Shown: positions 14,526 through 20,126 of the stretch, in pieces
How the letters are laid out: every line of letters begins with the position of its first letter
How positions within the stretch are numbered: the first letter of the stretch is position 1
NCBI RefSeq assembly: GCF_000516985.1
Contig: NW_006917093.1
Coordinates: 2,914,001 to 2,978,000 of the forward strand
Direction: 5' to 3'
Source of the DNA: Pestalotiopsis fici W106-1
Taxonomy: Eukaryota > Ascomycota > Sordariomycetes > Amphisphaeriales > Sporocadaceae
DNA: 64,000 nt
The notes under the pieces: model-generated
The model's database searches: none
What the model was told of the DNA's origin: nothing
Seen by the model: only the letters and a program-made list of their open reading frames with translations
Position numbers and translations under genes: made by a program

Positions 14526-15110
14526 CTATGGAAGGGGCACTTTCAATTTTGCTTTTCCTTCTATGCCTATTTCAGTGACAACATTGTCATTGCCATTGAT
14601 GTTATTGTTATTGGTGACATTCATTTCAATAACATTTCCATTGCCATGAATTTCGGTTCCGTGGTTGCGAGACGCCTCTAGGACTTGTCCGTAGAGGATC
14701 AGGAGCAGCAGAAGCGCAAGTCCAGCCTCGATCTCCAAGCCGTGTAATTCGATCTTCAGGTCCAGGCTGATGCGCACTGGCCTTTGGTGCGGTTCTGTGT
14801 TGCTTGGAGAAGGGTCGGTATAATGATTGCGGTACGACTTGGAGATCACCAGACCCAAAGTCACGAGGACGTAGCTGCGAATTTGTTCTTTGAGCTGTTG
14901 CAACTGTCTAGCTCGGGCCTCCTCTCCGGCGGCCCTTTGCGATATGATGAGCTTGTGTCTTGCAATGAAAGTAATCGCCAAGAGAGCTGGGTGCGACCGA
15001 AGGCGAACGCTACGCAGCTGCAGCGGCCGGTGTAATGGAGGCAAGCATCTTTGCGAATCTGCAATATCGCCAATCATTTGTGGCCCGGAACTTGGCCTTG
15101 AAGACTGCAA
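14526..15110 (-). CDS. putative membrane protein with C-terminal GN nonapeptide repeats
   Basis: Single-exon frame of 194 residues; no family recognised. Residues about 58-80 form a charged helix (AGEEARARQLQQLKEQI), followed by a hydrophobic stretch (80-90) and a strong transmembrane candidate at about 129-140 (GLALLLLLILYG). The tail after the helix (about 150-185) carries the GN repeat: units start at G156 (GNGNVIEM), near 165 and at G173 (GNDNVVTEI), spaced 8-9 residues and followed by G182. The same nine-residue pattern occurs in the four genes to the right. The N-terminal 50 residues look unconserved and a downstream start or an unseen intron is possible. The arrangement (helix, membrane segment, repeat tail) suggests a membrane-bound partner of the cluster, by inference only. 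Confidence 0.5.
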   Translation of the reverse strand: MQSSRPSSGPQMIGDIADSQRCLPPLHRPLQLRSVRLRSHPALLAITFIARHKLIISQRAAGEEARARQLQQLKEQIRSYVLVTLGLVISKSYRNHYTDPSPSNTEPHQRPVRISLDLKIELHGLEIEAGLALLLLLILYGQVLEASRNHGTEIHGNGNVIEMNVTNNNNINGNDNVVTEIGIEGKAKLKVPLP

Positions 15111-15602
15111 TGTATAGCTAGACTTTGGTTGAGGTGGTTCGAATATATTATCACTAGTCGCCTTGATTAGATATTCTTTGCATTATCACATCCTCGTGAT
15201 CTCGTACCTCAGCTTCACGGTCGGGTTTTTGGAGTCCATGACGACCGTGTATAATCACTGATTGCTGTGTCTTATCCAGTATTATAATCGAGTATCGACA
15301 ATTTGTCTGATTTGGGAATATTAGAGGTTTCGTCTTACGGTCAGATAAGGTGGGGTTTAAAGCGTTTTCATGCGACTGTAAGGCTTCACACCGACCTTGG
15401 ATCCGCGCGTAGATTTGTAATTACATGCTCAAAGCGAGGGAAGACGCAAGGCTGTACCGTAAAGATGAATGAAGGAGTGGCGAAGCAAGCCATCCTTGCC
15501 CAATCATGCATCTAATCAGTCATTCTGTCATCTGTCACCGCTACTCTACACATGTGACTCCAATGGTGTCTGCCTTTCACTGCGCCTGGTTCTAGGTCGC
15601 TC
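15111..15602. other. spacer within the repeat-protein cluster
   Basis: 492 bp between the membrane repeat protein (start at 15110) and the 3' end of the SesB-like hydrolase. It would hold the promoter of the former. No ORF of note. Confidence 0.5.
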
Positions 15603-16939
15603 TCAGCCCTTCCTCTCAAAGTACTTGTTCATGTGTTCCTTGACTTCAGCCGGGTCCGCAGCCCATTGGAAGGTCTTGTTCTCATTGCCAGATGTTGTAC
15701 TCCTGTTTTCATCGCCAAATTGACGGGTTTTGTTGCCGTCTCCTTCTGTTCTGGAATCGTTCGCCCGTCCAATTTGCTCAGTGTCGTCGCGATTCCCCTT
15801 TGTGAACTTCTGGTTTCCGTTTGACGCTGGAACGGGCCTTTTAGAACGATCGATAGCATTCTGTAAGGCATGCTTGACCATATTCGCAATATTATCTTCA
15901 ACATGTTGGTAAATGGGGTCGGTAGCACTTTCAAATTTGCACATGCTGCTGTGATTAGCGTCCAGCGGTATCTGCTTCTCGCGGTCTCCCGAAAGACCGA
16001 GAACAGCGGCTTTCGGATCCACGACCTAGGTGAATTGTTAGTAGAGTCTCGGCAGTGGTAGATAAGTCTTGAACCGCACCATTCCGAGCACCCCCAAAGG
16101 TTTTGTTTCGTAGAAGCTCAGAAATTGGAAGTCTTCAAGAAACTGGCGGAAGTCATCTGTGATAGATTTGGCGAACCAAGAATCCAATTTGAGTGCACTC
16201 ATGAAACTATTCTTCGGCCTTCTGCCCAGTTTTCGCACGGATCCGGCAATTACATCCCCAATCTTGGCGTTATTTCCGCCTTGATGCGGCGTACCGAAGA
16301 AAATGATGCCGTATGTGCTGTTCACAATGCTTTTGTAACTCTCGGCCTGCTTTGCATTGATCAATGCCTCGTAAAAAGGTTAGCTTTTGTCGCCATAATT
16401 GTCTGAACGGAAGTGTATACATACTCTCTTTACCACTATGCCACCAAGACTGTGACATATAAAGATCAGTCGCCGGTCCTTTTGGCCCTGTCTATGGTCA
16501 GACTCAATTGTGGTACCATATGGCTCCGTCACCTACATCACGGGCAATTGCAAGCTGGTTCAGCAGGCTCGCGGCTTGCTCCAGGACACCTGCGGTCGAA
16601 GTCTGGAAAGCCACATTCGCGTTGTAGTCGAACAACAGAATTCGGGCTTTGGGAAGCCGCTCTGGGAGAAAGTCGCGCAGCCACAGTGATTTCCCAGCGG
16701 TCCAGGTAGCTTCTGCATGCGACTTTCCTCCAAGGGGGTCAAGTCCGTGTACTGCAACAATGCTATGCGCGAGCTGTCAGTACCTATCTTAGCGAGCAGT
16801 ATGTCATGGAAGGCCTTGTTTATTCGACATACTCTATATCAGGCTCCAAAGGCTTCGCGAGCACCCTGAGGAAGTTCTTCGCCGACGAGCCCGGCTGGCG
16901 GACCGCATCAGGAGGGGTGTCAAGTACCGGTGAGGACAT
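15603..16939 (-). CDS. SesB-like alpha/beta hydrolase with C-terminal GN nonapeptide (amyloid-motif-like) tail
   Basis: Five exons on the minus strand: 16939-16833, 16762-16537, 16487-16425, 16367-16080 and 16025-15603. They join in frame to 368 residues. The fold is that of fungal SesB-type lipases: DIVAVHGLDPLGG (about 36-48), ILLFDYNANVAF, nucleophile elbow ICHSLGGIVVK (Ser124), GIIFFGTPHQGG, then VVDPKAAVLG (Asp231) and DANHSSMCKF (His253), giving a plausible Ser-Asp-His triad. Beyond the hydrolase (from about residue 298) lies a repeat tail of nine-residue units starting with G, for example GNRDDTEQI and GDGNKTRQF, ending in AADPAEVKEHMNKYFE. SesB-like proteins are effectors or partners of fungal NLRs, and some (SBP of Chaetomium) carry a prion-like tail. 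The donor after exon 4 is a weak GTGCGG. Confidence 0.85.
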
Positions 16940-17675
16940 CAGGTAAGAAATGGTACAGTAACTTGGATTATGGGGTAACACAAGCCTTGCGCAGAACAAT
17001 AGGCATGGATGGATGACAGTATGCAAGGATTGGTCAACTCGATTGGCGAACTTGGTCAGCCGATCGTGTCAAAAGGATGCGATTATCACTGATTAGCAAT
17101 TCATTGAGTACTGTAGGATATATAGTGAAGGGAAAGGTATTGACCTTTGGGTGAACTGCCGATCTTGAGGAGAAAGGAGAAGGCTATAACGCCTCGCCTG
17201 TCGCGATTGGGCCATAGCATTCCCACTTGCTGCGCCTTGCTGAAGTGCATGCTCGTTCTTTGACCAATGTGATCCATCCCTAAGAATCTCGCAATTTCTC
17301 TCAAGTTCGGTAAGCTTCATGCACCGATATGTGGTATGGTGATATTCGCGCTCCGTGTTGGGGATTCATTTGTCGGCTCCCCAAGGTCGAGTGACACGGA
17401 GTTATCATTGGGGACTCGGCTACATTTTGGCTGCTACCACATCATGCATGAGAGTCAGCTGCATTGACCGAAGAGCGTTCAGCAGTCAGCACAGCCTGGT
17501 GTCAATTCAACACCAAAAGCCTCGAGTTGTTAGTCATATGAAAAGCGCAAGAAATGATGCCATGAGCAGTACCACGGCGTGTTTTCATTTAAGGACAGCT
17601 GGTCCAGCCTGACTGGGAAATGAACAATATTCACAACGAGAACTTCGCAATACTCCTGACAGACTTCCCAACCCA
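16940..17675. other. divergent spacer (SesB-like hydrolase / tail-anchored repeat protein)
   Basis: 736 bp between two divergent starts, so it may act as a shared promoter. Short ORFs inside show no recognisable features. Confidence 0.45.
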
Positions 17676-18196
17676 ATGGCACAGGCTCAGGCACAAAAGA
17701 CCTTCTCTCCGACTCGATTCAAGGAAAGAGAAGACAGCAGGCCGAGGGGTCCGCAATTTTTAGACGAACCTCGTGACCAGAGTAGCATGTCATTGGCAGA
17801 ACGGCCAAGTACTTGGAACAACACTTCGGAAGAAAGAGCGGAAGACGCCAACGAAGAAACTTTACGAGTATGAGATACCTCTACATAATCACACATGAAA
17901 ATGCTGACATGGAATTCTAGACTGCACCATATCCAGATAGTCAGATGCATGGCAGCGCTGGAATTGATGGCAGTGAAGCCAGTACCACTTCCCAAGGCAA
18001 TCGACACGCAATTATTGGCGATAGAAATAACGCCCGTTCAGTCGGACGTGGGCATCTTGCTGGTATCAAAGGCAAGGGCAATACGTCGGAACAATATGAC
18101 ACTCATCCACCCACATTGGACAAGAACGTCATCATGTTGGTAATAGTGATTGCAGCTATTCTGATAGGGTGGCTTGTGTCATTCAGGTCAAGTTGA
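17676..18196 (+). CDS. tail-anchored protein with GN nonapeptide repeats
   Basis: Two exons, 17676-17867 and 17921-18196 (53-bp intron: GTATGA donor, CTGAC branch site, TAG acceptor); 155 residues. Exon 1 encodes a polar, disordered-looking N-terminus rich in Arg, Glu and Ser. Exon 2 carries units of the cluster's repeat, starting with G at 81, 90, 97, 106 and 115 (for example GDRNNARSV and GKGNTSEQY; one unit is 7 long). After a short proline linker comes one C-terminal membrane helix, about residues 134-150 (VIMLVIVIAAILIGWLV), followed by five residues. This is the layout of a tail-anchored protein with the repeats facing the cytosol. No known family. It is the only plus-strand member of the cluster and shares its upstream region with the SesB-like hydrolase. 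Confidence 0.65.
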
Positions 18197-18340
18197 AAGC
18201 AGTTCAACCCTATATGTCTGATATGTGTGAACTTGCACGGCTTGTAATTATGTGCACCGTTAATGGTATATTTGACGGGGTTCTCGAGAACAATTGATAG
18301 AGATCAACAGATAGTGTTTGCTTCACTTCGCTATCGTATG

Positions 18341-18864
18341 TCATTTCCCCCCGATGTCCCTCAGAGTATCCAGCAACCATTGGAATTGTTCGCGAATGTG
18401 TTTTGGCACTTCTCCAAGTGAGTGAACGAGCCTCTGCTGAACATTGTACAATGGATCGGCGATAGAGACGTTCGAATCCATATAAGTATGGCAGATATTT
18501 TGACCATATTGACACACCTCCTTGAAGTTATCGACAGCGAATGTCGTACCAATTTGAATCACATTGGACTTTCCAATCTGTGCAGCGAGGTTTCTGTCTC
18601 CCGTGATTCTGCTCAGATTGTCGTCTCCGTGTTGCATCGTCTCGTTGGTGCTTCCATTCGTGTGAGCATCGTGGCGGTGGCCAATTTGGAGCGTGGCGTT
18701 GCCATTGCCAATCTGTATGGATTTGCTCCCACTGCTGAGAGCTGTTGCATTTCTATCACCGTCCAAGAACGAATGCGTTAGTCGAGGGCTTTTCCCGTGA
18801 AAATTCTCTTTGAAAGGGTGCTTGATGGGAAGATCTCAATCCAGCCTTACCTAGGAGACATCAT
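18341..18864 (-). CDS. small soluble protein with GN nonapeptide repeats containing IQIG cores
   Basis: Two exons, 18864-18851 (14 nt, two adjacent ATGs) and 18752-18341, joined by GTAAGG...GATAG; 141 residues. The open frame alone has only a TTG start with an upstream stop, so a short first exon is needed and this is the best I find. Residues 13-72 are a run of repeats starting with G: GSKSIQI, then five perfect nine-residue units from 20 to 64 (for example GNGNATLQI and GDRNLAAQI), then GKSNVIQI. The sequence SIQIGNGN matches the RHIM core pattern I-Q-I-G-x-x-N. After the repeats, residues 73-141 contain SIADPLYNVQQ and a helical end with PKHIREQFQWLL. Similar elements (TDPIY, PAEVKEHM) occur in the hydrolase of the cluster. 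No known family. Confidence 0.6.
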
Positions 18865-19694
18865 CGTCTCAATGTTCCCGATCTCCCCTGTCAAGGGAGC
18901 CAAGATATGGTCGATATGTATGTAGAATTCTCACTTCTCGGTTGTGAAAGATATCCAGGAGTTGGCCACTTCCGCCAAAGTTGAACGTGGCGTAGGTGAC
19001 GGGACACACCGGAATCTATCATCTATCTGCCAGCCTTGTGTACCCTCCATCCCCACTGCGCCCTTTCAACCGGTGTGTGAATTTCTGCCATGGCACCACG
19101 TTTGTTTAGATGAATTCCATTGGCACCCTGGGGATGTAACCTCGAGAAAGCGCCAGGTATGAGCTGTAAGCCACTGCACTGCCCCGCAGTCATCATTATG
19201 TCATGCACAGAGTCTAGGAATGCACTTAGCTGCCATACAACGATCAGACCAATAGCGCCTGCTGGTGGCCACTGGCAGTCAATGTAGGACTTATTACTGC
19301 TTGATGTGCTCCGCTGCCAAGTAGCATTGAGTACAACCACATCAAATTCATAAATTGTGAGCGACTCTTTGACTTAACAGCGATTGGGATCTGCTTGCAC
19401 TAACTGGTTTCTTGTTACGGCCAGTCACTTGGAGGACGACATGTACACACCGATGGGGCAAACAATTATGCTCGTTTTAGAGTAAAAAGACATCTGAGCA
19501 CAAATCACATCCTTTTGGAATTTTGGGAAGCAAATTAGATGAATATTCAGTGAGAATCGTATTTATTGCGATATTTCCACTGCTATTTCAAGTGTGATAG
19601 ATTCTTGTTGGCGATGCAGGTATCACGGGTACCTGTCGAGGAACCTATGCGGGTGAAAGGCCACCTCGCTCCGAAATAACCGTAACGTTGCTAA
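18865..19694. other. spacer within the repeat-protein cluster
   Basis: 830 bp between two minus-strand repeat-protein genes. No further nonapeptide runs found on either strand and no other gene supported. Confidence 0.45.
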
Positions 19695-20126
19695 TCATTT
19701 GGAAGACTTGTTTGGGAGCCATCCCTTCATTGTCTTCAGCTTTGCTTTGACTTCTGGCGGTATATTTTCCAATGGCGTTGAAAACCCATCTTTCATGGCA
19801 TTGCCGATCTGGTAGATGACGGAGCCGAATTTCGTTATCAAGCTCTTGTTTCCGTTCCCATGCTGATTTGTCTCGCACTTATCGCCCTTGGTTTCGCTGG
19901 TGTTGGAATTGCCGTTTTGCCGGTTGAGATTGTCATCTCCCTTGGTGTCGTTCTTGTTGCAAATTCCATCCTGTGCTGAGCCGTTCACTTTGCCCACCAT
20001 TGAAGCCTCGTTGTTGTGGCCAACCTGTTTATTCGCGTTGCCAATACCGTCAATCCATATAGTATTACCATTACGATCCTTTTTGAGTCCAGACCGACTG
20101 TTACTGCTCTGGTCTTGTTGAGCCAT
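19695..20126 (-). CDS. small soluble protein with eight tandem GN nonapeptide repeats
   Basis: 143 residues from the ATG at 20126; the open frame extends upstream only to a TTG. After a polar leader, residues 27-98 are eight consecutive nine-residue units. All eight have G at position 1 and seven have N at position 4 (Cys in one); examples are GIGNANKQV, GDDNLNRQN and GNGNKSLIT. A degenerate unit precedes them and a YQIGNA segment follows (about 105-110). The C-terminus (PLENIPPEVKAKLKTM...) resembles the ends of the SesB-like hydrolase (DPAEVKEHM) and the 18341-18864 product (PKHIREQF). No transmembrane segment and no known family. This is the cleanest repeat array in the cluster. An upstream exon cannot be excluded: a hydrophobic segment is encoded just 5' in another frame. 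Confidence 0.65.
   Translation of the reverse strand: MAQQDQSSNSRSGLKKDRNGNTIWIDGIGNANKQVGHNNEASMVGKVNGSAQDGICNKNDTKGDDNLNRQNGNSNTSETKGDKCETNQHGNGNKSLITKFGSVIYQIGNAMKDGFSTPLENIPPEVKAKLKTMKGWLPNKSSK

Follow-up and report, generated by a model that had tools for sequence, protein, structure and literature searches.

In fungi, effector domains are tied to NOD-like receptors (NLRs) in two described architectures, either by fusion to the receptor or through a motif shared by the two proteins (PMC3321046, portion available). Four or five families of fungal amyloid-signaling motifs are counted in the accessible text of PMC12261475, and published motif searches begin from NLRs and their neighbors (PMC9815663, portion available). 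The known systems closest to the locus described here are those of the PP motif, namely the HELLP/PNT1 pair of Podospora anserina and the HELLP/SBP/PNT1 triad of Chaetomium globosum. In the latter, the PP-bearing NLR controls the SesB-like protein SBP (PMC5485727 and PMC7885112, portions available). We have analyzed a 64 kb window (C3:2914001-2978000) of the 51.7 Mb genome of Pestalotiopsis fici W106-1, in which a SesB-like hydrolase and three small proteins carry arrays of nine-residue units with the pattern G-x-x-N-x5. The array is possibly a module, as yet undescribed, for the assembly of cell-death or defense proteins.

The organization of the locus is similar to that of the C. globosum triad. 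In both, a SesB-like lipase bearing a G/N/Q motif at its C-terminus is clustered with differently built proteins that share the motif, as an earlier reading of the DNA letters (the sequence-only reading) had recognized. There are differences, however, from the PP systems. The lipase has a tandem of three 18-residue units here and a single motif there, position 6 of the array is T/S where PP has G, and the partners here are soluble and tail-anchored proteins. Moreover, NACHT, NB-ARC and PF17111 have no match in the window, leaving the hydrolase without an adjacent NLR. This agrees with the earlier statement that the window lacks an NLR or a HeLo/HELL pore-former, with the limit that the HeLo family proper was not searched for. 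PF17111, labeled PigL_N in the Pfam copy used, is taken here to cover the HeLo-like domains. All four array proteins are encoded inside 4.5 kb. The features are listed below, with positions counted from the start of the window.

15603..16939, minus strand: SesB-like alpha/beta hydrolase PFICI_05042, 368 aa (splice model, DUF676, lipase folds, relatives)
16939-16833, 16762-16537, 16487-16425, 16367-16080 and 16025-15603, minus strand: exons of the hydrolase gene (match to NCBI protein)
within 16437-16460, minus strand: serine motif CHSLGG of the hydrolase
15663..15824, minus strand: C-terminal array of the hydrolase, six nine-residue units or three 18-residue units (G/N scan, shuffles, AlphaFold2)
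15606..15659, minus strand: predicted C-terminal helix after the array, ADPAEVKEHMNKYFERKG (AlphaFold2, residues 353-367, predicted local distance difference test score, pLDDT, about 70)
18341..18864, minus strand: soluble-1, 141 aa, predicted splice model (array by scan and shuffles)
18864-18851, exon 1, 18850-18753, 98-bp intron, and 18752-18341, exon 2, minus strand: predicted splice model of soluble-1
18551..18736, minus strand: array of soluble-1, about seven units (up to 40.3 bits across 27 residues with the hydrolase-array profile)
19695..20126, minus strand: soluble-2, 143 aa, single exon
19833..20075, minus strand: nine-unit array of soluble-2, with eight units regular (up to 46.0 bits across 27 residues with the hydrolase-array profile)
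17676..18196, plus strand: tail-anchored protein, 155 aa, predicted splice model
17676-17867, exon 1, 17868-17920, 53-bp intron, and 17921-18196, exon 2, plus strand: predicted splice model of the tail-anchored gene
17990..18097, plus strand: degenerate four-unit array of the tail-anchored protein (6/8 G/N positions; 7.1 bits with the profile)
18125..18184, plus strand: predicted C-terminal transmembrane segment, the tail anchor (hydropathy)
14526..15077, minus strand: N-rich membrane protein, not counted as a member (nine-residue period not above composition)

Runs of five nine-residue units were scored with one point for every G at position 1 and one for every N at position 4, giving a maximum of 10. 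In a six-frame scan of the whole window, scores of at least 6 are confined to the hydrolase, soluble-1, soluble-2 and the tail-anchored protein, and shuffled frames reached a maximum of 3-5 in 179 of 180 shuffles and 6 in the other. The significance of each array was assessed with local shuffles that preserve composition (4000 per test). None of them reached the score of the hydrolase (9/10), soluble-1 (9/10) or soluble-2 (10/10, and 15/16 over eight units). The last value reproduces exactly the best array of the sequence-only reading, with G in 8/8 and N in 7/8 units. The array of the tail-anchored protein scores 6/8 over four units, which was reached by 0/4000 local shuffles, 6/10 over five units (14/4000), and 6/16 over eight units (118/4000). 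The membrane protein had been counted as a fifth member, and this part of the earlier claim does not stand. Its score over four units (4/8) was reached by 440/4000 whole-protein and 2059/4000 local shuffles, and that over five units (5/10) by 89/4000 and 617/4000, respectively. The G/N excess of this protein is owed to an N-rich stretch and not to a period. The G-x-x-N-x5 array is confirmed as genuine in the other four of the five genes.

The five-exon splice model of the hydrolase, with the span 15603-16939 proposed earlier, is identical to the NCBI protein PFICI_05042 over 368 aa, which confirms the model. The protein matches DUF676 with 23.9 bits (Pfam cut-off 20.3), and its top PDB matches are lipase folds. 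His123, Ser124, Leu125, Gly126, Gly127 and His253 are kept in at least 90% of 50 aligned hydrolase rows. The hydrolase belongs to the SesB-like (DUF676-type) lipase effectors. As for the spans given earlier for the small genes, that of soluble-2 holds as a single exon, while soluble-1 and the tail-anchored gene require the predicted introns of 98 bp and 53 bp.

With the hydrolase as query, 312 relatives were found among 5.8 billion proteins, and the best 120 of these were used for the analyses below. An 18-residue-period profile was built from 49 C-terminal arrays of these relatives, that of the P. fici hydrolase being one of them; P0021, P0032 and P0034, in which the array is shifted by one unit in phase, were excluded from the profile and from the Q counts. 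With this profile, 53 of the 120 relatives score at least 21 bits and carry a C-terminal array, and the other 67 score 0.2 bits or lower. A simpler G/N count selects 52 carriers. The carrier records bear the names Pestalotiopsis, Annulohypoxylon, Daldinia, Hypoxylon, Nemania, Xylaria, Rosellinia, Gaeumannomyces, Fusarium and Pyrenochaeta. For the hydrolase, these 53 carriers contradict the possibility, considered earlier, that the repeat would be found only as unrelated Asn/Gly low complexity.

The relatives were placed on a FastTree tree calculated from the hydrolase domain without the array (P0001 and P0122-P0124 omitted, several long branches flagged). The carriers sit in a single set of 57 rows, 53 with the array and four without, with a local support of 96. 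Array presence requires four changes on this tree, compared to a mean of 39.6 with shuffled labels. The simplest reading of this history is one gain and a few losses. One of the four array-less rows is the P. fici paralogue PFICI_04918, located about 356 kb away (C3:2572925-2573984). An array-like stretch, GDDNAASYQ, is found past its stop codon, which suggests array loss by decay.

Six or seven nine-residue units make up the array in 52 of the 55 hydrolases that carry one (two of the 55 being fragments). The tail that follows the array is short in the relatives. It is transmembrane-like in nine of the 55 (one of these, P0044, fused) and polar in seven, three of which are the Pestalotiopsis hydrolases; five tails are too short to score. 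P0044 (Lasiodiplodia mahajangana O1611_g3021) has a 235-residue tail that appears by eye to be a fused neighboring enzyme, and the whole protein is blank in Pfam. It clusters with two Nemania proteins (support 99). Lasiodiplodia is, we take it, not a xylarialean genus, and therefore the record may be misnamed.

The repeating unit of the arrays is 18 residues rather than nine, GxxN-x-T-x-Q-x followed by GxxN-x-S-x-T-x. Gln is present at position 8 in 147/147 odd units and 6/98 even units of the 49 arrays. Position 6 is Thr in 66% of odd units and Ser in 72% of even units, and positions 2, 3, 5 and 7 are variable. The 49 arrays were picked by their G/N score, so that the G and N frequencies are not independent observations, in contrast to those of Q, T and S. 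The variable positions are chiefly polar or charged, and, in odd units, position 9 often holds a hydrophobic residue.

The hydrolase, soluble-1 and soluble-2 fit this profile outside of the G and N positions as well. After the three Pestalotiopsis rows were omitted, the fit at the non-G/N positions was reached by 0/20000 shuffles for the hydrolase and soluble-2, and by 11/20000 and 5/20000 shuffles for two stretches of soluble-1. The 7.1 bits of the tail-anchored protein were equalled in 14/2000 shuffles. The membrane protein, as a candidate fifth member, scores 3.4 bits (55/2000 shuffles).

AlphaFold2 was run on the hydrolase with 50 sequences, 42 of them array-bearing. The model has six strands in the array (residues 300-304, 309-313, 318-322, 327-331, 336-340 and 345-349), with a spacing of exactly nine residues. 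The pLDDT is 85-92 across residues 301-350, and the C-terminal helix follows. The strands correspond to positions 5-9 of the units and the turns to GxxN, which places the conserved positions 6 and 8 on one face. The array probably folds as a polar-cored solenoid with two strands per turn, and the prediction for the hydrolase bears out the earlier expectation of a beta-solenoid in which 18 residues span two strands.

A 55-residue consensus of the array matches the P. fici genome four times (E value up to 10), and every match falls in the hydrolase, soluble-1 or soluble-2. Similarly, soluble-1 (E up to 10) and soluble-2 match only themselves, each other and the hydrolase in the genome. The tail-anchored protein and the membrane protein at 14526-15077 each have no second copy there at E up to 10. 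In the database of 5.8 billion proteins, soluble-2 found itself alone at E up to 1, among five candidates scored. The hits of a protein search with the array profile were soluble-2, a single known hydrolase, two pieces of hydrolases and an RTX-type protein, and no array was established on non-hydrolase proteins outside the P. fici cluster. This search scored the 7,990 candidates sharing most words and had poor recall, and is therefore a weak negative for partners elsewhere. The RTX-type protein, P0124 (358 aa, from a metagenome), has a weak match to the array profile (E 0.36), runs of GNGN units, and a PF00353 domain, presumably the RTX repeat.

The family is linked to NLRs both by fusion and by proximity. 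Among the array-less relatives of the hydrolase, P0043 carries a NACHT domain and P0094 and P0096 carry NB-ARC domains; the accessions on P0053 and P0059 are presumably TPR and ankyrin domains, respectively. For 20 of the 31 other SesB-like loci in P. fici, the nucleotide-binding (NB) domain of an NLR follows within 2 kb on the same strand. These 31 loci represent 35 of 40 matches, with close ones merged and the five in the cluster omitted. The SesB-like domain is thus found fused to or beside fungal NLRs, as a family.

On the other hand, none of the P. fici NLR sequence scanned bears the array. At 55 of the 106 listed NB domains (87 from one list and 19 of 26, those without overlap, from a second), this sequence contains no multi-unit array, and the genome consensus search finds none on an NLR, although a single short or degenerate unit would evade that search. 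The earlier expectation that the repeat would recur elsewhere holds for the same hydrolase in many fungi, but not for NLRs within this sample. A motif seen on no NLR here may be missed by NLR-based searches. No published description of the array was found in the open-access literature searched, and of the 16 NLR-side motifs in PMC9815663, none of the patterns given in the available text equals the array.

Our preferred reading, which we put at close to an even chance of being right, sees in the array a module for homotypic assembly, borne by an NLR-type fungal lipase effector that is held at a membrane and tuned by its partners. In the proposed mechanism, each unit would form two five-residue strands joined by GxxN turns, and the units would stack into a beta-solenoid with T/S (position 6) and Q/T (position 8) on one face. 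The arrays of the four proteins could then bind or template one another end to end. The tail-anchored protein, whose predicted anchor has a mean Kyte-Doolittle value of 3.17 across 16 residues, would hold the growing assembly at the membrane, and soluble-1 and soluble-2 may seed, extend or cap it. The lipase would be gathered and activated at this membrane assembly and, in a response of the cell-death or non-self type, would attack membrane lipid. The tail of the Pestalotiopsis hydrolases is polar, and the membrane anchor may have moved in P. fici from the hydrolase tail to a partner protein.

A broader version of this proposal, less likely than not, is that the array defines a new fungal signaling motif family, in which Xylariales, Fusarium, Gaeumannomyces and Pyrenochaeta bear the 18-residue two-strand solenoid unit in threes on a lipase effector. 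The Pestalotiopsis wiring would then have no adjacent NLR, with the tail-anchored protein nucleating or capturing the lipase and the soluble proteins tuning it. Dozens of fungal records retain the array on the lipase effector. Should it assemble, fungal signaling would gain a motif family of regular and predictable fold with a likely membrane-anchored partner, together with a direct test of how an immune lipase is switched on when its cluster has no NLR.

Several observations weigh against homotypic assembly. The genome consensus search misses the degenerate array of the tail-anchored protein, and equally degenerate arrays elsewhere could go undetected in the same way. No relatives of soluble-1, soluble-2 or the tail-anchored protein were found elsewhere, soluble-2 alone having been searched individually outside the genome, and a conserved multi-protein system is therefore not demonstrated. 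The AlphaFold2 model of soluble-2 is unusable (pLDDT 38.8, predicted template modeling score 0.19, four sequences), and AlphaFold2 readily renders repeats as solenoids. Finally, the array is mostly polar, compared to the hydrophobic core of HET-s-type motifs.

The main rival, ranked below homotypic assembly and in our view rather unlikely, is that the array is a stable, folded beta-solenoid providing a fixed surface for dimerization or docking, with the small proteins as partners or inhibitors of the lipase and no templating. The confident fold of the hydrolase array was predicted for a monomer, the near-constant number of units is what a folded domain would have, and the mainly polar or charged character of the variable positions also suits this explanation. 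However, open-ended stacked strands usually require caps to remain monomeric. Moreover, known templating loci likewise share their array among differently built neighbors (PMC3321046, portion available), as at this locus.

A second rival, which we consider improbable, derives the unit from the PP motif by modification and makes the lipase the absent SBP-like partner of a PP-bearing NLR at C2:5.075 Mb, by which it would be driven in trans. The precedent is the control of SBP by a PP-bearing NLR in C. globosum (PMC5485727 and PMC7885112, portions available). The C2 locus (about 5073.5-5076.6 kb) has a standard PP-motif pair, an NB-ARC NLR starting with MAASASFGDANAGFQAGYINGSV beside a divergent HeLo-like protein, and no SesB-like gene was found there at E up to 0.001. 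The array profile scores 20.9 bits on the N-terminus of this NLR, compared to 8.4 bits or lower in the remaining fetched loci (254 kb outside the cluster, some overlapping). The fit extends beyond the G and N positions (6/20000 shuffles). With the PP pattern written as FxGx(x)NxGLQLxGxNxGxL, G1, N4, Q8, G10 and N13 coincide with this N-terminus, and these residues and S15 align without a gap.

In comparison, the other two PP motifs of P. fici do not score. The C-terminal motif of the HeLo-like partner has 3.7-4.5 bits (2964/20000 shuffles) and a PP-like protein start on C7 has -4.8 bits, and for this reason kinship with PP is a lead rather than a result. A Pfam scan of the arrays (maximum E 10, with the HMMER filters dropping most matches above 0.1) points the same way. 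The PP model PF17046, a misnomer according to the accessible part of PMC12261475, matches both C2 PP motifs below its curated cut-off, but none of three arrays of the cluster and not the consensus. An intermediate, single motif is present in none of the 67 array-less relatives by profile scoring. PP/RHIM is the closest known motif to the array; the resemblance is partial, and by the Pfam model the three arrays are not PP motifs. Direct descent from PP was set aside as the favored reading, as the 20.9-bit NLR is undercut by the other two motifs, and was kept as a rival.

The HeLo-like protein on C2 has a PF17111 match in addition to its PP motif, and a second PF17111 match is located at C2:5079202-5079633. 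On C7 (3221100-3221700, minus strand), the PP-like motif SFADGNSGLQAGMIHGAV precedes a P-loop-like stretch, and this protein is absent from the NB-domain lists.

It is very unlikely that the array is a divergent sigma motif, as in sesA/sesB/het-eN of Nectria haematococca. Both have G/N/Q units of about nine residues that stand in groups of three near the C-terminal end of a SesB protein and are shared within a cluster; the sigma units, nine or eight residues long, are GxGxQFNxx and GGTQNINT (PMC3321046, portion available). The register differs, however, with Q at 5 and N at 7 in sigma and N at 4 and Q at 8 in the array. The array alternates every 18 residues, for which the available part of PMC3321046 has no counterpart, the NLR partner is adjacent in the sigma cluster, and PF17106 is unmatched.

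The Pfam models for sigma, PP, HET-s, curlin and RTX gave no match to the three arrays or the consensus in the same scan. HET-s/HRAM units stack in tandem as a beta-solenoid, as predicted for the array. Their units are 21 residues long with a hydrophobic core and are found on HeLo or HeLo-like proteins, whereas the array has mostly polar units of 18 residues on a lipase, and an identity with HET-s/HRAM was rejected. Curlin repeats are two-strand turns of the QxGxxN type, and RTX repeats have a nine-residue spacing with 18 residues per turn. Neither identity was retained, as the three arrays match neither model; the array, moreover, is borne by a SesB-like lipase. GDQN of Fusarium oxysporum is a recently named G/N/Q motif, found on a probable NLR and a neighboring effector, but its pattern, NxxxGxQYxxxGxGDQNxVSxxxxQxN, does not suit the array (PMC12261475, portion available).

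The last explanation, a functionless drift of Asn/Gly low complexity spread by local duplication, would suit small proteins that are known from the P. fici genome alone and a neighbor (14526-15077) that is N-rich without a period, but it is highly improbable given the fit of the non-G/N positions to the Pestalotiopsis-free profile and the retention of the array by all but four of the 57 rows in its clade, and for the hydrolase it is already contradicted.

The membrane protein at 14526-15077 has its first ATG at 15077. It has no Pfam match, and it is predicted to end in the N-rich stretch NNNNINGNDNVV, which has no significant nine-residue period. In the searches of soluble-1, two weak, unrelated Pfam matches were found (E 0.24 and 0.66) and one weak, unrelated match in NCBIfam. 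By eye, the C-termini of soluble-1 (18341-18550) and soluble-2 (19695-19832) have a P-x-x-[VI]-[KR] stretch followed by a likely helix, as does the hydrolase.

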